DNA of 64,000 nucleotides, taken from the NCBI GenBank assembly GCA_025056455.1, contig JANWVY010000008.1, forward strand, positions 62,001 through 126,000. The letters are read 5' to 3'. The first letter of the stretch is position 1. Every line of letters begins with the position of its first letter. This stretch comes from Bryobacteraceae bacterium (GTDB lineage: Bacteria; Acidobacteriota; Terriglobia; Bryobacterales; Bryobacteraceae). Positions 41,753-50,258 of the stretch are shown one piece after another. The translations under genes and the position numbers were made by a program. A model generated the notes under the pieces. It had not been told where the DNA came from. It was given only the letters and a program-made list of their open reading frames with translations, and ran no database searches.

Positions 41753-41920
41753 TCAATTGGTTGAGGGCAGAGTGCCGTGCGAAACGATGTTAGCAACCTC
41801 CGCGTGGCGTACTCCGTACAACTTCTTAAGGTTGCGACAGAGTTCATCGGCTAGCTTCTCGGCCGATTCCTCTTCCTCGTGCTCGACCACAATCTTCAAG
41901 AAGATGTCACTTCGCCACAT
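41753..41920 (-). CDS. 55-residue small protein, divergent from the Cys-rich gene
   Basis: MWRSDIFLKIVVEHEEEESA is followed by EKLADELCRNLKKLYGVRHAEVANIVSHG: an alternating beta-helix-beta pattern with a balanced, protein-like composition. TATCAT lies 7 nt before the ATG, with TCGACA 16 bp further upstream, so it has its own promoter but no ribosome binding site. Its start is 23 bp from the start of the Cys-rich gene. Function unknown; possibly a small regulatory or ACT-like fold. Confidence 0.72.
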   Translation of the reverse strand: MWRSDIFLKIVVEHEEEESAEKLADELCRNLKKLYGVRHAEVANIVSHGTLPSTN

Positions 41921-41927
41921 GCCCCTA

Positions 41928-41937
41928 ATGATACGAT
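41928..41937. promoter_or_regulatory. Bidirectional leaderless promoter (ATGATACGAT)
   Basis: The decamer ATGATACGAT reads TGATACGAT on the plus strand (6 nt before GTG 41944) and TATCAT on the minus strand (7 nt before ATG 41920), the two hexamers sharing the bases TA. The entire intergenic space is 23 bp, so -35 contacts must lie in coding DNA (TCGACA at 41955-41950 for the minus gene). Confidence 0.65.
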
Positions 41938-41943
41938 ACGGAA

Positions 41944-42576
41944 GTGAAATGTCGATTGTGCGACGTGCGCAAGCCTCGCCGTTTTTGTCCTGCCATCAGA
42001 AGTGAAATTTGCGCTCTCTGTTGCGGAACGCAACGGGAAGTATCCATTTCTTGTCCGCTTGATTGTGAGTTTTTACTGGAGTCTCGGACGCGAGAAAAAC
42101 TCAGTGAGATCGAGCCAGACAAACTTCCGCACCGCGATATTCAGCTAAGCGATGAGTTCCTAGAGCGCATTGACGCACTCTTGGGCGCTGTATCGCAGAT
42201 GCTACTCTCGGCTGCCCTGTTGACTCCTGGCGCGGTTGACCGCGACATCCAAAAAGCGCTGGATGCCATGATTCAGACCTACCGCACCAAGCAAAGCGGA
42301 CTGATCTACGAAACCCGTCCCGACGATTTGGTCGCAGCAAGCCTTCAGCAGCGGTTACAAGCGGAAATCGACCGCTACGCTCAAGCTCTCACCCAGGAGC
42401 GCGGCATGACCGCCGTACGTGATGCTGATGTGCTGGGAGCCTTGGTGTTTCTCCGGCGTCTGGCGCTTTATCTGGACAATTCACGACCTCGCGGTCGAGC
42501 TTTTGTCTCTTACTTACTTCAACGGTTTCCGCCAGACCCATCAAGCGCGCGATCCACACCTGTCCTAACGGCCTAA
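41944..42576 (+). CDS. Cys-rich N-terminal zinc-binding-like protein, function unknown
   Basis: 210 residues from GTG 41944. Eight cysteines in the first 41 residues (positions 3, 6, 15, 23, 26, 27, 37 and 41; KCRLCDVRK, ICALCCGTQR, CPLDC) suggest one or two zinc sites. The rest is helical with FLERIDALLGAVSQML and DADVLGALVFLRRLALYLDN. It starts 23 bp from the divergent 55-residue gene and is predicted leaderless. No family recognised. Confidence 0.78.
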   Translation: MKCRLCDVRKPRRFCPAIRSEICALCCGTQREVSISCPLDCEFLLESRTREKLSEIEPDKLPHRDIQLSDEFLERIDALLGAVSQMLLSAALLTPGAVDRDIQKALDAMIQTYRTKQSGLIYETRPDDLVAASLQQRLQAEIDRYAQALTQERGMTAVRDADVLGALVFLRRLALYLDNSRPRGRAFVSYLLQRFPPDPSSARSTPVLTA

Positions 42577-42624
42577 GAGCCGTAGACTAGAAGTAATCTG
42601 TCTGGCAACAGCGTTTTTTGACGG

Positions 42625-43203
42625 ATGCCCGTTGAGATGCCCACCGTGAGCCATGCCGCGCCTTGGTCCCAGGACGGTTCGGCGGCGCCCGCAGCCGCGG
42701 TGGCCGTTGTCCACGCGCAAGGCCCAGAGGAGAGCGTGCTTCTGATCCAGCGAGCCCGCCGGCGGAATGATCCCTGGTCTGGGCAGTGGTCGTTTCCGGG
42801 AGGCAAACGCGATCCTCAGGACCGGGATCTCCTCGAAACCGCGCTTCGGGAATTGCAGGAGGAGTGCGAGCTCCGGCTCCTGCGAGATCAATGTGTGGCC
42901 ACGCTCGAGGTCATGTACGCAGGACGGTCTGCGGGAAGGCTGGTTGCCGTCGAGCCTTACCTGTTCCGCCTTCCGAAAGCGGTTTCGATCCAAGTCAACC
43001 CGGCTGAAGCGACCCAGGCCTTATGGCTACCCTTGTCTATCCTGCGTGATCCTTCGCGCCATCAGTTGCTGGAAGGGCCGGGAATTCCGTCTGGATGGCG
43101 GGTTCCAGGAATCCCTCTAGGAGAAGTTCCTCTATGGGGATTTACCTACCGGGTTCTCTGCGCATGGCTCGGAATCCCCATCCTGAACCAGGTTTCCTCT
43201 TAA
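42625..43203 (+). CDS. NUDIX hydrolase, CoA pyrophosphatase-like
   Basis: 192 residues. The NUDIX box is a slightly non-standard GGKRDPQDRDLLETALRELQEECEL, with the FPGGKRDPxDxDLLxTALRE layout of the CoA diphosphatase (NudL) branch, but the signature Gly near the end is Cys. LIQRARRRNDPWSGQWSFPG precedes it. Substrate uncertain. ATG 42625 chosen; 48 nt downstream of the Cys-rich gene. Confidence 0.88.
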   Translation: MPVEMPTVSHAAPWSQDGSAAPAAAVAVVHAQGPEESVLLIQRARRRNDPWSGQWSFPGGKRDPQDRDLLETALRELQEECELRLLRDQCVATLEVMYAGRSAGRLVAVEPYLFRLPKAVSIQVNPAEATQALWLPLSILRDPSRHQLLEGPGIPSGWRVPGIPLGEVPLWGFTYRVLCAWLGIPILNQVSS

Positions 43204-43241
43204 TCCCAACAAGTTCAGCTGAGCAAAGTGTGGACCTGGGC

Positions 43242-43286
43242 AAAAAAAGCCGGAGCCCGGCCCTACGGGCGGACTCCGGCGAGTTT
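43242..43286. terminator. Bidirectional terminator
   Basis: GCCGGAG (43249-43255) pairs with CTCCGGC (43274-43280), with CCCG/CGGG-type pairing inside. Seven Ts flank it on the minus strand and GAGTTTTT on the plus. It separates convergent NUDIX and TonB receptor genes. Confidence 0.88.
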
Positions 43287-43297
43287 TTGAGAGGATC

Positions 43298-46200
43298 TTA
43301 GAAGCTGTAACGCAGAGACAGTTGAACGTTTCGTTCACTACTCTTGCTGGTGACCTTGCCAAATGCCGCCGAGAGTGGATCTGTGTTCACACCACCCCAG
43401 TTCGGGTGATTGGGGAAGTTGAAGAATTCAGCTCGGAACTGAATGCGATGCCGCTCGGCGAACTGGAAGTTCTTAAATAGGGCGGCATTCCAGTTCTGGA
43501 AGCCAACGTTATTGAAAGTGATCGAGTTGCGGTTTTGATTTCCGTACGTACCGTTGTCTGGCCGCCGGGCCCAAGGTTGGCCACCGGGCCGGGGATTGAA
43601 CCAGAAATTGTTATCGGCAACCGAATCACTAAACTGCTTGGGCCGGTCCGTGGTGAGAGAGGTCAGGCTCCACGGCACGAAGTTGGGAGAACCGATGCCG
43701 TAGATGTCCTGAGCGGTTCCAACCGTGATCGGGGTGCCGGTTTGGAACTGCGCGACGCCGTTAATTTGCCATCCACCGAGTACGTTGCGGGCAACGGCGT
43801 TCCCCGTTCGGAAGAAGGGCAGGTCCCAGATAAAGTTGGCAACTGCCACGTGACGCGTGTCAAAGCTTGACTTGCCCCACACATTGAAGTCGTTATAGGA
43901 GTCATACAAGCGGTCTCGTGGGCCGGAAGCGTGGTCCATGGACTTCGAATAGGTGTAGGCGAAGCTAAAGCTGAAGCCTTTGGTGAAGCGGCGGTTCACC
44001 TCCATCTGAAGCCCGTTGTATTCGCTGCGCCCGGCATGCTCCAGCATCGGGATGAAGGCGAAACCTTTATAGGGCCGCAAGAAGTTTACGTTGGCTCCCT
44101 GGTTTTCGGGACGGAAAGTTGTGCCGAGTGGCAACTGATTCAGATCCCGCTCCCGGGCCAGGTGGTTGCCCACCGTCCCCACGTAGGCCACTTCGACGGT
44201 CGTCTCAAAGCCCAGCTGGCGCTGGTAGGTGACGTTCCAGTTATACGCCTTGGGCAGTTTCAAGACCGGATCGATCGTCATAAAGAATTGGGGGAAGGCG
44301 ACACGGACGGCGCCACCTGGATTATCAGCTAGGCCGTTGGCCACAGAGGCCATGGGTTGGAAGGGCGGATTTCCACCAAGGAAGACGGAGTCATAGACAC
44401 CGTACCTTGAAATGAATCCACCAAAGCCCGTCCGCAGGACATCTTTCGAGCTCAGCTGATAGGCCAGACCGATGCGAGGCACCACGTTGAGGTGCGCTTG
44501 AGCTGGGTAGGGGCCGCCGCGCAGCAAACGGTCAAACTGGCCGGAGTCGATGGCAGGCACACGGCCGCGGCCGGCTTTCGGGAATTCCTTCCCAGGAATA
44601 TAGACACCGTTGAAGCGGTCGCCGGAAATGACGTTTCCCGTGGCGCGGTCAAGAACTGCCGCCCGGCTGGGGTCATACAACTTGGGGTCAAATACGGCCA
44701 TGTTGCCCCAGAGCGACTTGAAGTAGCCAGTTATCCAAGTCCCGCGGAATCCCAACTCGAGCTTTAACTTCTGCGTCACCCGCCAGGCGTCTTGGCCAAA
44801 AAATTCAAACATGTGTCCGCGGTAGGGAGTGAAGGATCGGGGACCAATTTCCGCGTAAGTGGAGAACAGTCCCATGGCCGCGTTCCCGATGGCCACGCCC
44901 GTGCTTGTGGCACCGGAGCGAGTGTCGGCAAATACGAACCGGCCATTCTGGTTGTTGGTGCCGCCTGGAACTCCGGTCACGTTGATTTGGTCGAAGTCAT
45001 TCTGCCCGGCTTTTTCGTAATAAACGCCAAACTTGAATTGATGGTTGCCTTGAATCTTGGTGAAGTTGTTGGAGAACTGATAGATGGGACCCGTGGACCG
45101 GGCTGGATAGGGCCCTCCATCGATCGAGGCGAAGTTTTGGATCTCAATGGTGGGAACTTTGTCCTGAATTTCTTTCGGCTCGCTGAACAAATAGGGATAA
45201 TTGATTCCCCTCGTGGAGCGAAGATAACGCTCGCCGCGCCGGTCAATATCAATGTATACGCGGTCCACCGAGGCAGCTACTAGCACTTCATTGATCATCG
45301 TCGGGCTGATCGTCCAGACGTGGTTCAAAGAGGCCGTCTTGTTGGGGCGGTTCCAGTCGGTGACGGCGAAATCGAAGCCACCGCGGAAGGCGTCAATCGC
45401 TGTCCAGTTGTAGTTGGCGTGGCGGAAGCGCAACACTTGCTTCTGCGTCAGGTTGTAATCGATGGCTACGGTGTCTTTACGCTGATTCTGCGGATTCGGG
45501 CGAATCTGGAAAAAGTTGGCGGTTCCCTGGCGGAAGCCGGGCGTCGGGTTCGGATACGTGCGAATGAAGGCGATTCCGTTCGGGCTGAGCCGGCTGGCCG
45601 GGATAATGTTGTTGGGGAACGGCTGCCCCGTGGTCGGGTCGTTAATGACCCGCGGAGTAGCAAAGAAGCCGGTGGCTGGATTTAGAAGTTCACTGAAGTT
45701 GCCTTGGCGCATCAGTTCGCTGGGGACAGTTTGGATCGAACTGCTAAACTGCCGGAAGCGAACCCACTCCTGGCTCCAGAGGAAGAAGGCTTTGTTGCGA
45801 TCGGTATTGAAAACTTTGGGGATCGTGATCGGACCGTCAACCACATAGCCAAACTGATTGAAGCGCCGCGCAGGTCTGGCCACTCCCGCGCGGTTTTGAG
45901 CCCAAGTGTTGGCGTCGAGCTTGTCGTTGCGGAAATATTCGTAGGCGGCAAAGTGAAGGTCGCGTCCGCCAGAGCGGGTTACGATCCGGATCTGACCGTT
46001 GTTGGACCGGCCATACTCTGCTGCGTAGTTTGCCGTCAGAACCTGCACTTCTTGCACGGTTTCCAAATCGGCCGTGCCGATAGAAGTCCCGTTGGCGCGC
46101 GTGCGGATGGCCACCGCGCCGTCAAACGTAATCACGGAATCCTGCGAGCGTCCGCCGTTGATAGCAAAGCCGCCCGAGGTTAAGCCGAAGTTAAAAGCAT

Positions 46201-46702
46201 TCAGCGCGCCGCCCCGGACACCGGGCTTGAGCAGAGCTAAAAATAGCGGATTTCGCCCGTTCAAAGACAGGTTGGCAATCTGGGACCGTTCGACGGTTTT
46301 TCCAACTGTTGCGGATTCGGTTTGCAGCGTCGCCACGCTAGCTTCAACAGTCACGGATTCGGTAAGCTGGCCGACTGCAAGCTCCACCGACACGTTTAAG
46401 GGAACTCCCGCGTCCATCTTGTTGCGGGTTTTTTCGAATTTCTTAAACCCTTGCGCTTCAACAGTGATGGTGTAGTAACCAGGCGGGAGATTCGTTGCCA
46501 AATAAATTCCAGCCTCATTGGTGACGACTTCTCTCGAAACCGCCGTGGACTCGTTTTTCACCACAACCTTCGCGCCCGATACAACAGCGCCTGTGGGATC
46601 TTTGACAATCCCTGTAATATACGAATTGTCCGATTGGCCAAAAACGGATGCTACCACCCAAGCAAGTCCTAACGCTACGAATACTAAGCGTCTGTGATGC
46701 AT
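43298..46702 (-). CDS. Oar-like TonB-dependent receptor with CarboxypepD_reg domain
   Basis: 1134 residues from ATG 46702 (AGGGAGG 6 nt upstream; longer frame rejected). Signal peptide (about 1-24, ending SVFGQ), carboxypeptidase regulatory-like domain (GIVKDPTGAVVSGAKVVVKN, about 30-110), plug (LSLNGRNPLFLALLKPGV, FAINGGRSQDSVITFDG) and a 22-strand barrel ending with aromatic LSLRYSF. Proteins of this type are expanded in acidobacteria and are thought to import oligosaccharides or other large nutrients. Substrate unknown. The 290-nt region upstream holds its promoter (weak TTGATT/TACAGT). Confidence 0.93.
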   Translation of the reverse strand: MHHRRLVFVALGLAWVVASVFGQSDNSYITGIVKDPTGAVVSGAKVVVKNESTAVSREVVTNEAGIYLATNLPPGYYTITVEAQGFKKFEKTRNKMDAGVPLNVSVELAVGQLTESVTVEASVATLQTESATVGKTVERSQIANLSLNGRNPLFLALLKPGVRGGALNAFNFGLTSGGFAINGGRSQDSVITFDGAVAIRTRANGTSIGTADLETVQEVQVLTANYAAEYGRSNNGQIRIVTRSGGRDLHFAAYEYFRNDKLDANTWAQNRAGVARPARRFNQFGYVVDGPITIPKVFNTDRNKAFFLWSQEWVRFRQFSSSIQTVPSELMRQGNFSELLNPATGFFATPRVINDPTTGQPFPNNIIPASRLSPNGIAFIRTYPNPTPGFRQGTANFFQIRPNPQNQRKDTVAIDYNLTQKQVLRFRHANYNWTAIDAFRGGFDFAVTDWNRPNKTASLNHVWTISPTMINEVLVAASVDRVYIDIDRRGERYLRSTRGINYPYLFSEPKEIQDKVPTIEIQNFASIDGGPYPARSTGPIYQFSNNFTKIQGNHQFKFGVYYEKAGQNDFDQINVTGVPGGTNNQNGRFVFADTRSGATSTGVAIGNAAMGLFSTYAEIGPRSFTPYRGHMFEFFGQDAWRVTQKLKLELGFRGTWITGYFKSLWGNMAVFDPKLYDPSRAAVLDRATGNVISGDRFNGVYIPGKEFPKAGRGRVPAIDSGQFDRLLRGGPYPAQAHLNVVPRIGLAYQLSSKDVLRTGFGGFISRYGVYDSVFLGGNPPFQPMASVANGLADNPGGAVRVAFPQFFMTIDPVLKLPKAYNWNVTYQRQLGFETTVEVAYVGTVGNHLARERDLNQLPLGTTFRPENQGANVNFLRPYKGFAFIPMLEHAGRSEYNGLQMEVNRRFTKGFSFSFAYTYSKSMDHASGPRDRLYDSYNDFNVWGKSSFDTRHVAVANFIWDLPFFRTGNAVARNVLGGWQINGVAQFQTGTPITVGTAQDIYGIGSPNFVPWSLTSLTTDRPKQFSDSVADNNFWFNPRPGGQPWARRPDNGTYGNQNRNSITFNNVGFQNWNAALFKNFQFAERHRIQFRAEFFNFPNHPNWGGVNTDPLSAAFGKVTSKSSERNVQLSLRYSF

Positions 46703-46992
46703 GAGAAACCTCCCTGAAGTTCTGCGGACTGCGTTGCCGCGCTCCCGCAAGGGTCAATGCCTGACGCGCTAGGCGTACACAAGCTTTCGAAGCAATTTCT
46801 TCGCTTACTGTATCAAGTGTGTGTGAGAGAATCAATTGAGGCGTGTCACATTTTAGTTACGGCGTGGAGAGACGCGAGCCCGCTCGAAAGTCTTGCTAGT
46901 GCGTCTCCGTAGGTCGACCTGGTTCCTGCACATAGGTGAGTTTCTGGTGGATCGAGGCGCGAGGCTTGATCTACAGGCATGAGGCCGGCCGC

Positions 46993-48438
46993 CTAACCGG
47001 CAAGCCTCGCCGTCTTGGCGCGGACAACCGTTTCGCACATTGGCCGGCGAGCAATGGCAATCAACGAAGTGGGTGGCCACGGGAGGATGGGATCGATTTT
47101 TCTCCAAAGCCAGACAAGACGGTCAAATACTTTCAGTTGAAAGGGGCTTAACTGGGGGCGCCGCAAGATCTTTCCATTGAAATACCAGCCAGGCAGGGCA
47201 ATGCGGTTGAATGGCAGGATCCTTTCTAGTTCAAAGCCTGCTTGGAGGATGCTCTCTTGAAGCTGGCCCCTGGAGTAGCGCAGCCGATGGCCGAGCATTT
47301 CGTCCATTTTTCCGTAGGCAAACTGGCCGTGGGGTACCAGGAGGACGGCCCGTCCCCCGGGCTTTAAAGCGGTAAAGAGGTTTTTCAGGGCGCGCTCGCG
47401 GTCCTCGACGTGCTCGAGAACGTTGAGGCAAACTACCGTATCGACAGACCGTTGTAAGTCAGCGAAATCGGCGGCACTGGCTACATCCAGCTTCCGCACC
47501 TCGAGACAAGGGCGCTCTTGAAACCGGGACCGCAGGCGCGCCAGATGCTGCTCGTCGACGTCACTGGCGATGTAGCGCTTCCGTCCCCCTATCAAGTGGC
47601 GACTCAAATTTCCGATGCCAGCTCCGATTTCCAAGACAGATTGACCAAGATAGGGGCGGATGGTATCCGCCATCCAACGGTTGAAAGCGACGGCGGGCGA
47701 GAAGGCCTCTAGAGTTTTGGGTCCGACTTCGGTGTAAATGTCGTTGGTCAACGCATATCGCAGAATCACGGCCAAAGCCGAAACGGCATCCCGCCACCCG
47801 ATCTTCTTGCCTTCGGCGTAGGTCCGGCCATGATAGCTTACAGGCACTTCGTAGATGCGGGCCTCACGCTTGGCCAGCTTGATCGTTAATTCTGGTTCGA
47901 TTCCAAAACGGTTGGAGCGCAGTGGAATGCTCTTCACGAGCGAGGTCCGGAAGGCTTTGTAACAGGTCTCCATGTCGGTGAGATTGAGATCGGAGACGAC
48001 GTTGCAGATTGTCGTTAGGATCCAGTTTGCAAGCGCGTGCCAGAAATACAACACGCGCCGCTCGCCGGCCACCAGAAACCGCGAGCCGTACACGGCGTCA
48101 GCCCGGCCTTCCATCAAGGGTGCAAGAATACGCGAGTAATCGGAGGGATCATACTCGAGGTCAGCGTCTTGAATGATGCTAAACTCCCCCCGCGCATGTT
48201 GAAGCGCGGTCCGGATGGCGGCGCCTTTGCCTTGGTTCTTCGGCTGACGGATGAGCCGAATTTCGGGATAGCGGGCGGTGAGGCTCTCCACGATTTCAGC
48301 CGAGGCGTCGCTTGAGCCGTCATCGACGACAATCACCTCGCGTTCCATTCCTGCCGGGAGCGGAGCCCGCATCACCCGTTCCAAGATGACGCCGACAAAC
48401 TCTTCCTCGTTGTAAACCGGCATGAGAATCGACAACAT
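46993..48438 (-). CDS. Glycosyltransferase family 2 - SAM methyltransferase fusion
   Basis: 481 residues in two enzymes. Residues about 1-235 are a dolichol-phosphate-mannose-synthase-like GT2 (LMPVYNEEEFVGVIL, VIVVDDGSSDASAEIV, KNQGKGAAIRTAL, IIQDADLEYDPSDY), lacking C-terminal membrane helices. Residues about 245-440 are a class I methyltransferase (VLEIGAGIGNLSRHL, VVCLNVLEHVEDRERAL, LKPGGRAVLLVP). The fusion suggests a polyprenyl-linked or surface glycan that is transferred and methylated. It begins 15 nt after the RmlC-like stop, so the two are one operon. Confidence 0.92.
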   Translation of the reverse strand: MLSILMPVYNEEEFVGVILERVMRAPLPAGMEREVIVVDDGSSDASAEIVESLTARYPEIRLIRQPKNQGKGAAIRTALQHARGEFSIIQDADLEYDPSDYSRILAPLMEGRADAVYGSRFLVAGERRVLYFWHALANWILTTICNVVSDLNLTDMETCYKAFRTSLVKSIPLRSNRFGIEPELTIKLAKREARIYEVPVSYHGRTYAEGKKIGWRDAVSALAVILRYALTNDIYTEVGPKTLEAFSPAVAFNRWMADTIRPYLGQSVLEIGAGIGNLSRHLIGGRKRYIASDVDEQHLARLRSRFQERPCLEVRKLDVASAADFADLQRSVDTVVCLNVLEHVEDRERALKNLFTALKPGGRAVLLVPHGQFAYGKMDEMLGHRLRYSRGQLQESILQAGFELERILPFNRIALPGWYFNGKILRRPQLSPFQLKVFDRLVWLWRKIDPILPWPPTSLIAIARRPMCETVVRAKTARLAG

Positions 48439-48453
48439 GTCGGCTCGCGGTGA

Positions 48454-49008
48454 CTATTTGTGCTGCGTTTCCCAGTCGTAGTTAATGCGCGGGTCGTTAT
48501 ACGGAATGCGGCCCTCGTCCTGTGGGTCATAGAGCCGGTCCGTCACGTAAATCAGCATGGAGGGTTGTATGCCAATCACTTTGTATCCGTGGGCGACCCC
48601 CGGTGGAATGAGAATCTGCCAGGGGCGCATCTGTCCCACATAGAGTGTGTTGCGCAGGCCAAAGGTGGGCGAGCCGTGCCGCAAATCGACCAGCGCCACC
48701 TGGATCATGCCTTGCGCCGGCACCCAAAAATCGGTTTGCCGTACATGGTAATGGAAGGCCTTGATCGCGCCAGGATAGTTAAAAGCACAGGAAACTTGTG
48801 TGGTTTCGAGAGGGAACTGCGAAACTAAGCCCTGGCGCAGTCGGGCGATTTCGAGAAAATAGCCGCGGTCATCAGGCCACAGGGCATAAGGCGCCACTTG
48901 CACCCCGTCGATGAGATCGGCGGAACCGGCCTGTAGGATCACTTTCCCGATGCCGCGCTCGCAACTTGGAATGACGAGGCTCAGGGCGTCCATAGAGGCG
49001 ACTGTCAT
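48454..49008 (-). CDS. dTDP-4-dehydrorhamnose 3,5-epimerase-like cupin (RmlC family)
   Basis: 184 residues. RmlC-like jelly roll: DDRGYFLEIARL, GAIKAFHYHVRQTDFWVPAQGMIQVALVDLR, PPGVAHGYKV and a Tyr-containing end (YVTDRLYDPQDEGRIPYND). The RmlC active-site His is seen in AFHYH, though the preceding Arg is Lys, so reaction details may differ. Operon with the GT2-methyltransferase fusion, consistent with deoxysugar glycan synthesis. Divergent from the cupin gene by 30 bp. Confidence 0.85.
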   Translation of the reverse strand: MTVASMDALSLVIPSCERGIGKVILQAGSADLIDGVQVAPYALWPDDRGYFLEIARLRQGLVSQFPLETTQVSCAFNYPGAIKAFHYHVRQTDFWVPAQGMIQVALVDLRHGSPTFGLRNTLYVGQMRPWQILIPPGVAHGYKVIGIQPSMLIYVTDRLYDPQDEGRIPYNDPRINYDWETQHK

Positions 49009-49019
49009 GACAATCCCTC

Positions 49020-49029
49020 ATGATACAAT
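49020..49029. promoter_or_regulatory. Bidirectional near-leaderless promoter (ATGATACAAT)
   Basis: Same decamer design as at 41928: TGATACAAT on plus (9 nt before ATG 49039) and TATCAT on minus (11 nt before ATG 49008), overlapping by two bases in a 30-bp intergenic space. Confidence 0.65.
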
Positions 49030-49038
49030 CAGCCAGCA

Positions 49039-49386
49039 ATGCAGGTCCAACACTGGAATGAACTCGAAATCGAGCAGATGAACCCGCTCGTTCAACGGCA
49101 AGTGCTTCATACCCAAAACATGACTATGGCCCGGCTCATGCTGAAGAAAGGCGCAGTCGTGCCCGAACACCAGCACATCAATGAGCAGATCTCTACCGTG
49201 CTCGAGGGGAGTCTGATCTTTCAAATTGCAGGTCAAGAATTTTTGGTTCAAGCGGGGGATTCGATGGTAATTCCGCCAAACGTTCCGCACAGCGTTTCGG
49301 CGTCTGAAGATTCACTCGTGATTGACTTGTTTTCACCACGGCGTGAGGACTGGCTCCGGGGTGAAGATGCTTATCTCCGGCGCTAG
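49039..49386 (+). CDS. Cupin-domain protein
   Basis: 115 residues, single cupin barrel: motif 1 PEHQHINEQISTVLEGSL (His, His, Glu metal ligands) and motif 2 GDSMVIPPNVPHSVSA (His). It could be a small dioxygenase, isomerase or sugar-binding protein; substrate unknown. It starts 30 bp from the divergent epimerase gene and is followed 29 nt later by the exported isomerase-like gene, probably one operon. Confidence 0.88.
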   Translation: MQVQHWNELEIEQMNPLVQRQVLHTQNMTMARLMLKKGAVVPEHQHINEQISTVLEGSLIFQIAGQEFLVQAGDSMVIPPNVPHSVSASEDSLVIDLFSPRREDWLRGEDAYLRR

Positions 49387-49415: not shown

Positions 49416-50258
49416 ATGAGACGCAACGAATTTCTAAAAAGCCTCGCGGTTTTGGCCGCCGGGCCGGCCCCAGCGAAAAAGCTCCAACGGCTCGGTGTCC
49501 AGCTCTACACCGTACGTTCGATCTTGAGTGAGAAGCCACTTGAGACCTTGCGAGCGATTGAGCAAATGGGTTTTCAGGAAGCGGAAGTGGTCCGGGCTTC
49601 GCTCGATAAGATTTGGGAGAGTTTCAAGCAAACCAAGCTCCAACCGGTTAGCCTGCATATGGACACGTCCTTGTTCACCACGAGGATGGCCGATTTACCG
49701 GGAGCCGTGGATGACGCTGCGCGGCGTGGGTTTCAATACGTGGTGTGCCCCTACATCGCGCCCCAAGATCGGGGCGGCGTTGCCGTTATCGAAAAACTTG
49801 CGGCCAACTTAAATCAGGCTGGAGAAAAGTGTAAATCCGCCGGACTCAAGCTGGCCTATCACAATCACGCCTTTGAGTTTGAAATGACTCCGTCGGGCAC
49901 GTTACTAGACATTCTGCTCGCGAAGACAGATCCGCAGCTGGTTTTCCTAGAGCTCGACATCTTCTGGGCGGCCGTCGCTGGCGCTGACCCTGTAGCGCTC
50001 TTCCAGAAGTATGCAGGCCGCATCCCTCTGGTCCACGTTAAAGATGTCAAACCAGGCGTTGAAAAGCGTCTGGATGAGCGCGTGCCTCGCGATGCATTTC
50101 GAGAGGTTGGCCGAGGGTCACTTCCGATGGCGCAGATTCTCCGGGCTGGATCGAACGCCGGAGTCCGGCACTTCTTCGTGGAGCAAGATCAAACACCTGG
50201 TAATCCTCTAGACAGTTTGCGAATCAGTGCCCAGTATCTGAAGGACCTAGATTTCTGA
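49416..50258 (+). CDS. Exported sugar phosphate isomerase/epimerase-like TIM barrel
   Basis: 280 residues. A short N-terminal signal-like segment (MRRNEFLKSLAVLAAGPAPA; twin Arg, moderate hydrophobicity) is followed by an AP-endonuclease-2/xylose isomerase-like barrel: GVQLYTVRSILSEKPLETL, YHNHAFEF (metal His), LELDIFWAAVAGADP (Glu/Asp), PLVHVKDV (His) and HFFVEQDQ. The metal site is complete. Such proteins are numerous in acidobacteria and act on sugars or polyols. Confidence 0.87.
   Translation: MRRNEFLKSLAVLAAGPAPAKKLQRLGVQLYTVRSILSEKPLETLRAIEQMGFQEAEVVRASLDKIWESFKQTKLQPVSLHMDTSLFTTRMADLPGAVDDAARRGFQYVVCPYIAPQDRGGVAVIEKLAANLNQAGEKCKSAGLKLAYHNHAFEFEMTPSGTLLDILLAKTDPQLVFLELDIFWAAVAGADPVALFQKYAGRIPLVHVKDVKPGVEKRLDERVPRDAFREVGRGSLPMAQILRAGSNAGVRHFFVEQDQTPGNPLDSLRISAQYLKDLDF

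Follow-up and report, generated by a model that had tools for sequence, protein, structure and literature searches.

A shared -10 decamer between divergent start codons in a Bryobacteraceae genome: a candidate bidirectional promoter for two leaderless mRNAs

In Escherichia coli, Warman, Grainger and colleagues have described bidirectional promoters, in which a near-symmetric -10 region is used both ways and whose divergent starts lie most often 18 base pairs (bp) apart, with 10 and 23 bp also common (PMC12825309, PMC10268837); the definition covers two opposite-strand starts 7-25 bp apart (PMC10268837). Simultaneous occupancy of such promoters in both directions is impossible; basal transcription of all five promoters tested was too low for competition, and exclusion was seen once one direction had been strengthened (PMC12825309). 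Here we analyse a 64,000-nucleotide (nt) stretch of a Bryobacteraceae genome (contig JANWVY010000008.1 of assembly GCA_025056455.1, positions 62,001 to 126,000; 'the window'), in which two pairs of divergent genes, pair 1 and pair 2, are each separated by a short gap holding a decamer of the form ATGATACRAT. In our view each decamer is likely to form the core of a bidirectional promoter of the sigma-70 type, and the two mRNAs of pair 1 are likely to be leaderless.

The decamers resemble the E. coli promoters in having a near-symmetric -10 core that can be read both ways and, at pair 1, in a predicted start distance of 24 bp. They differ in that both start codons of pair 1 lie at the predicted start sites; in the accessible parts of the E. 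coli papers we did not find the terms 'leaderless' (PMC10268837) or 'start codon' (PMC12825309). With leaderless genes (Zheng 2011, PMC3160421; Zhong 2025, PMC12340547) pair 1 shares a TANNNT box just upstream of the start codon, which leaves no room for a Shine-Dalgarno leader, and Acidobacteria are listed with 13.3% leaderless genes (Zheng 2011, PMC3160421). In contrast to the present case, these papers treat genes singly as far as their main text could be seen, where 'bidirectional' and 'divergent' were not found. The divergent prpD and Rv1129c genes of Mycobacterium tuberculosis each have start sites mapped to the start codon (PMC3898074), as is predicted for pair 1; there, however, RNA ends were mapped, whereas we rely on sequence, and the figure legend, the part of that paper seen, does not say that one -10 element is common to both genes. 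The literature, thus, already has bidirectional -10 promoters, leaderless genes in Acidobacteria and, in Mycobacterium, a divergent leaderless pair. A search of the open-licence literature, seen in part, returned no paper describing one shared -10 element for two leaderless genes. Pair 1 appears to be the most compact conserved combination of a bidirectional -10 element with leaderless initiation that we found, and may be the smallest head-to-head control region that the two together allow.

Overlapping -10 boxes and leaderless distances

A sequence-only reading of the window had reported two decamers in divergent gaps of 23 and 30 bp, and their sequences and coordinates proved exact (Table 1). 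At pair 1, ATGATACGAT (41928-41937) takes up much of the 23-bp gap between a minus-strand ATG at 41920 and a plus-strand GTG at 41944. At pair 2, ATGATACAAT (49020-49029) lies in the 30-bp gap between a minus-strand ATG at 49008 and a plus-strand ATG at 49039. As that reading had also noted, both decamers hold two -10 hexamers on opposite strands, TATCAT overlapping TACGAT (pair 1) or TACAAT (pair 2) with TA in common, and on the plus strand of both pairs a TG one base ahead of the hexamer makes an extended -10. The reported range of 6-11 nt between boxes and starts held as well: 7 and 6 nt at pair 1, and 11 and 9 nt at pair 2, where the start at 49008 is not certain. The key fact missing from it was leaderless initiation.

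The genome carries a leaderless signature. Upstream of in-frame starts TANNNT is most frequent at distances of 6 and 7 nt (81 and 95 of 4859), as against 35 and 30 of 5064 out-of-frame control triplets; by a rough estimate the excess at 6-9 nt corresponds to one in ten of the called genes. A G stands two bases upstream of 55% of the boxes at leaderless positions, and a TG extension is present in 59 of 280 compared with 17 of 121 in the control. It had been argued that an A preceding TGATA makes the reverse complement itself a -10 hexamer. This is right as geometry, but A precedes the TG in 11 of the 59 extended -10 elements at leaderless positions and in 167 of 948 in the background, and we do not consider it part of a general extended -10 consensus here.

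Both genes of pair 1 lie at the leaderless distance from their boxes (about 6-7 nt in this genome). From the layout, the signature and the conservation described below we infer transcription in both directions. The opposite-strand hexamers share the palindromic dinucleotide TA (ANNNTANNNT), and RNA polymerase would bind the decamer in either orientation; at these distances RNA would start at, or one base from, the start codons, and both mRNAs would be leaderless, the gap being little more than a promoter. The predicted start sites would be close to the 23-bp class of E. coli. Leaderless initiation would, thus, explain both the 6-7 nt spacing and how a gap of 23 bp can suffice. Pair 2, with boxes 9 and 11 nt from its starts, does not show the leaderless distance, and short leaders are likelier; we do not class it as leaderless. 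It may use the same core with leaders of about 2-3 nt for the plus gene and, if the start is 49008, 4-5 nt for the minus gene. That transcription in one direction would block the other is physically expected, and since there is little but the shared box between the genes, loci of this kind would lend themselves to studying exclusion between divergent polymerases.

Table 1. Promoter elements and genes at the two divergent pairs, and other genes of the window.
Feature	Position	Strand	Basis
Pair 1: shared decamer ATGATACGAT, layout ANNNTANNNT; proposed core of bidirectional promoter	41928..41937	both	sequence, shuffles, conservation
Pair 1: putative -10 box TACGAT; extended -10 TG at 41929-41930; 6 nt from box end to GTG 41944	41932..41937	+	sequence; position and spacing kept in same-genus relatives
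Pair 1: putative -10 box TATCAT; 7 nt from box end to ATG 41920; TA 41932-41933 common with plus box	41928..41933	-	sequence; distance kept in relatives
Pair 1: weak -35-like hexamer TCGACA, 16 nt from TATCAT, within coding start of plus gene	41950..41955	-	consensus promoter scan
Pair 1: gene for 55 amino acids (aa)	41753..41920	-	found in 89/121 family genomes
Pair 1: P0001, Cys-rich 210-aa protein, GTG start	41944..42576	+	found in 42/61 genomes
Pair 2: decamer ATGATACAAT	49020..49029	both	sequence, window shuffles, cupin-locus comparison
Pair 2: putative -10 box TACAAT; extended TG at 49021-49022; 9 nt from ATG 49039; -35-like CTGTCA at 49002-49007	49024..49029	+	sequence, relatives, promoter scan
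Pair 2: putative -10 box TATCAT; 11 nt from ATG 49008; -35-like TGGACC at 49049-49044	49020..49025	-	sequence, promoter scan; spacing varies in relatives
Pair 2: P0002, dTDP-4-dehydrorhamnose 3,5-epimerase-like gene, start 49008 or 48993	48454..49008	-	above Pfam cut-off, below NCBIfam rmlC cut-off
Pair 2: P0003, 115-aa cupin	49039..49386	+	open reading frame and family search
1150-aa outer-membrane beta-barrel protein, carboxypeptidase-regulatory-like domain	43298..46750		Pfam OMP_b-brl_4
481-aa protein, family-2 glycosyltransferase domain then methyltransferase domain	46993..48438		
Xylose-isomerase-like TIM-barrel protein, directly downstream of the cupin	49416..50258		

We compared the decamers with chance expectation. 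The 64-kb window holds two matches to ATGATACRAT where 0.06 are expected, and none of 100 shuffles reached two. The whole 4.98-Mb genome, for which the sequence-only reading had proposed a search for decamer enrichment, holds seven (none for the reversed pattern), and the window shuffles, scaled to the genome, give roughly 4 to 5 by chance. We therefore dropped exact-decamer enrichment as the basis of a claim: the exact decamer is not special, its placement is. Six of the copies could be placed, four between and two inside called genes; the seventh lies on contig C24.

What did stand out was the layout. ANNNTANNNT lies 6-8 nt from both starts in 4 of 249 divergent gene pairs, against a shuffle mean of 0.31, and none of 2000 shuffles reached four. 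This sample comprised 1514 genes called on 1.985 Mb, and 76 of the divergent pairs have candidate gaps of 18-40 bp. The four pairs with the layout include pair 1 but not pair 2, whose distances are 11 and 9 nt. A raw scan for ANNNTANNNT that used no gene calls was weaker (24 matches against 9 in reversed controls, summed over spacings of 6-8 by 6-8 nt). Gene calling relied on a simple script based on codon usage, whose starts are imprecise (P0001 was begun at C28:104199 instead of 103944); the divergent-gap and layout tests tried upstream starts beside the called ones. The shuffles for this test and for the small-gene test below were mono-nucleotide shuffles, which ignore relatedness and dinucleotides.

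Pair 1 in relatives

P0001 loci were compared in 41 of the 42 genomes, among 61, in which the gene was found, a match at a contig end (G018) being left out. The small gene of pair 1 has a match in 25 of the 41, and in 16, from 8 genera, the minus box of the decamer lies 7 nt (once 6 nt) from its start, with spacer letters that differ among the loci; in L034 the minus box is at 7 nt and the full decamer is absent. The minus distance is kept across relatives and the plus distance is variable. In one genome of the same genus (G007, locus L009) the two -10 boxes have come apart: the gap is 41 bp, and either box lies at a distance of 6-8 nt from its own start.

By a profile search the small gene is present in 89 of 121 genomes of the family, and 87 copies were scored (L398 and L409, with no start codon near the model start, were dropped). 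In 21 of the 87, from 13 genera and again with varying spacer letters, the distance from the ANNNTANNNT decamer to the start is exactly 7 nt, compared with a mean of 0.33 and a maximum of 3 in 2000 shuffles. Of the 64 loci beyond the P0001 comparison, 11 have it at 7 nt and 20 at 6-9 nt. A divergent P0001 is close by in 62 of the 87 copies. The notion of one fixed decamer did not survive comparison, as in related loci ANNNTANNNT persists with a changed middle, for example as ATGTTACGAT and ATGGTACGAT. It is the distance itself that is kept.

With the distance relaxed to 5-12 nt the decamer is present in 37 of the 87 copies (24 genera; 32 with P0001 divergent). Another 22 copies (18 genera), all with P0001 divergent, have TANNNTA no more than 35 nt away. 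It takes the form TAGTATA, which is TATACTA reversed, in 17 of them, and chance may account for some of the remaining five. Taken together, the decamer and TANNNTA copies suggest that this locus uses two known overlap classes. Leaders of more than 8 nt occur in 15 TAGTATA copies, and by a loose test 14 of these have a Shine-Dalgarno-like tetramer. TATACTA was seen at the same gene pair in L352, L354, L356, L364, L366, L367, L369, L373, L374, L375, L384, L386, L390 and L391; in the genera concerned the two -10 boxes overlap differently, in agreement with the 18-bp class, and the small gene mostly has a Shine-Dalgarno leader.

The decamer also varied with the presence of a partner. Where the small gene has its box at 6-9 nt, the full decamer is present in 27 of 31 copies with a divergent partner and in 5 of 13 without one (p 0.002, relatedness ignored). 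Of all 25 small genes that have no divergent partner, 13 have TANNNT at 6-9 nt from the start, and the contrast suggests that in partnerless copies the leaderless box is often retained while the other half of the decamer is missing. At least one of the five partnerless copies with a full decamer, L401, faces another gene instead. In its genome (G015; L180, L298 and L401 are this case) the small gene faces a different gene, with a signal-peptide-like start by eye, again in a 7-10-7 layout, and it looks as if the promoter half had moved together with the small gene.

These comparisons raise the possibility, which we hold only tentatively and regard as somewhat doubtful, that the family carries recurrent, selected promoter-only gaps of 22-24 bp, in which one shared -10 element would serve two leaderless mRNAs with RNA polymerase in one orientation at a time. 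The same locus would then move over evolution between a 23-bp form (ANNNTANNNT) and an 18-bp form (TANNNTA), with leaders gained or lost on one side.

Neither protein of pair 1 (55-aa or P0001) belongs to a family above the curated cut-off in Pfam or NCBIfam. The layout should help in gene finding, as it predicts both start codons, including that of the easily missed 55-aa gene.

Pair 2, other gene pairs and the phylum

We compared 38 cupin loci. ATGATACAAT is present in 17, 7-9 nt before the start in 16 and at 14 nt in L185; L053 and L057 carry ATGATAGCCT and ATGATACACT, six loci have TGNTANNNT without the leading A, and 13 have no TGNTANNNT within 40 nt. The divergent neighbour, judged from its first residues, is an epimerase-like or a nucleotidyltransferase-like gene. 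Its start lies 7 nt from the minus box in L039, L044 and L052, 8 nt in L045, 11-12 nt in L038, L040 and L048, and 23-60 nt in ten loci, eight of which have a Shine-Dalgarno-like sequence by eye. L186 and L187, which have no divergent frame, carry G instead of the leading A. The plus promoter of pair 2 is a well-supported prediction from these sequences and its minus promoter a plausible one, and pair 2 is a weaker and looser case than pair 1. The proposal that the overlapping -10 elements act as promoters is backed by conservation in both directions at pair 1, and at pair 2 in the plus direction only.

The layout recurs at other genes. A methyltransferase / thymidine-kinase pair has the exact 7-10-7 spacing in 8 of 22 thymidine-kinase loci, all in the genus; in seven of the eight both flanking frames reach 50 aa, and in L295 the minus frame is short. 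L191 and L196 look alike, at 7 and 6 nt by eye. The decamer variants at this pair include ATGTTAAGCT, ATGTTAAGAT and ATGTTAAACT. Pattern searches of the 61 relatives gave 17 matches for 7-10-6 spacing and 30 for 7-10-7 (29 sites, one read on both strands), compared with 1 and 6 in reversed controls. Control spacings of 10/10 and 4/4 gave 3 matches each (the latter at 2 sites), and none when reversed. Frames of at least 50 aa flank the pattern on both sides in 13 of the 17 and 17 of the 29 loci, which by eye represent about 15 gene pairs. Across the phylum, 297 genomes gave 19 matches and 1 in the reversed control; that the layout is general there is weakly supported.

Alternative explanations

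It is possible that the decamer is a one-way promoter, an extended -10 element of the plus gene only, with the reverse TATCAT following from A-TG-N-TA and the minus gene transcribed from elsewhere. This would suit much of pair 2, where the cupin decamer is kept while the minus partner and its spacing (7 to 60 nt) differ between genomes; it would also suit L042, which has the leading A and no minus frame that we found, the thymidine-kinase locus L202, with a decamer and no minus match, and the other classes of the phylum, where the 18 loci besides that of the window include 11 with a frame of at least 50 aa on one side, 3 with neither and only 4 with both. At pair 1, however, the minus distance is the one that is kept, partnerless small genes still have their box at 6-9 nt, and A before TG is no general preference; we consider a purely one-way promoter unlikely. 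Much less probable still, judged from the sequence comparisons, is a regulator binding site with -10-like letters in it by coincidence. Genes of unlike function do have the same ten letters ahead of them, and there is little variation among the cupin copies (17 of 38 loci are identical), but the variants hold the -10 letters A, T, A and T at positions 1, 5, 6 and 10 while the middle changes, and the distance to the start codon is fixed, as a leaderless -10 element predicts. Similarly improbable is an unselected overlap of two ordinary -10 boxes. Among the genes called in the sample there are 13 divergent gaps of up to 35 bp, short gaps often hold a single -10 box, and a consensus promoter scan of 41800-49200 found 3 sites, all at the two decamers, with a shuffle mean of 2.8; each site has its -35-like hexamer within the partner gene, TCGACA (pair 1) and TGGACC (pair 2) going with the minus boxes and CTGTCA with the plus box of pair 2. 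Chance is disfavoured by the same-gap shuffles, by conservation over 13 genera and by the reversed and spacing controls.

The bidirectional promoter, which we prefer, has several observations against it beyond the pair 2 variation and the one-sided phylum loci. The minus -10 boxes of both pairs have no TG extension. At pair 2 the minus start at 49008 is uncertain, the gene caller having chosen 48993, and the leading A is missing in four cupin loci that have a divergent frame (L054, L055, L064 and L182), which speaks against a simple rule. The decamer is not at exactly 7 nt in 66 of the 87 small-gene copies, and 28 of the 87 fit neither overlap class. Eight of the 17 matches in the 7-10-6 search are pair 1 itself, and the counts are not independent events, because the sequences are related by descent. 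Two of the four gene pairs with ANNNTANNNT 6-8 nt from both starts were rejected as conserved cases: the ICMT / FAD-oxidoreductase gap, which has a different and less clear form in relatives, and the pair on C22, for which no minus partner turned up at four loci from relatives.

Elsewhere in the window's genome (L118; G000:C11:814174-814187) the decamer occurs a third time; read in the TATCAT direction, it stops 7 nt short of a called ATG at C11:814187. TATCAT stands by itself at the leaderless distance there, a point in favour of the preferred explanation. The divergent neighbour of this ATG is about 170 nt away, and this copy is apparently a one-way leaderless promoter.

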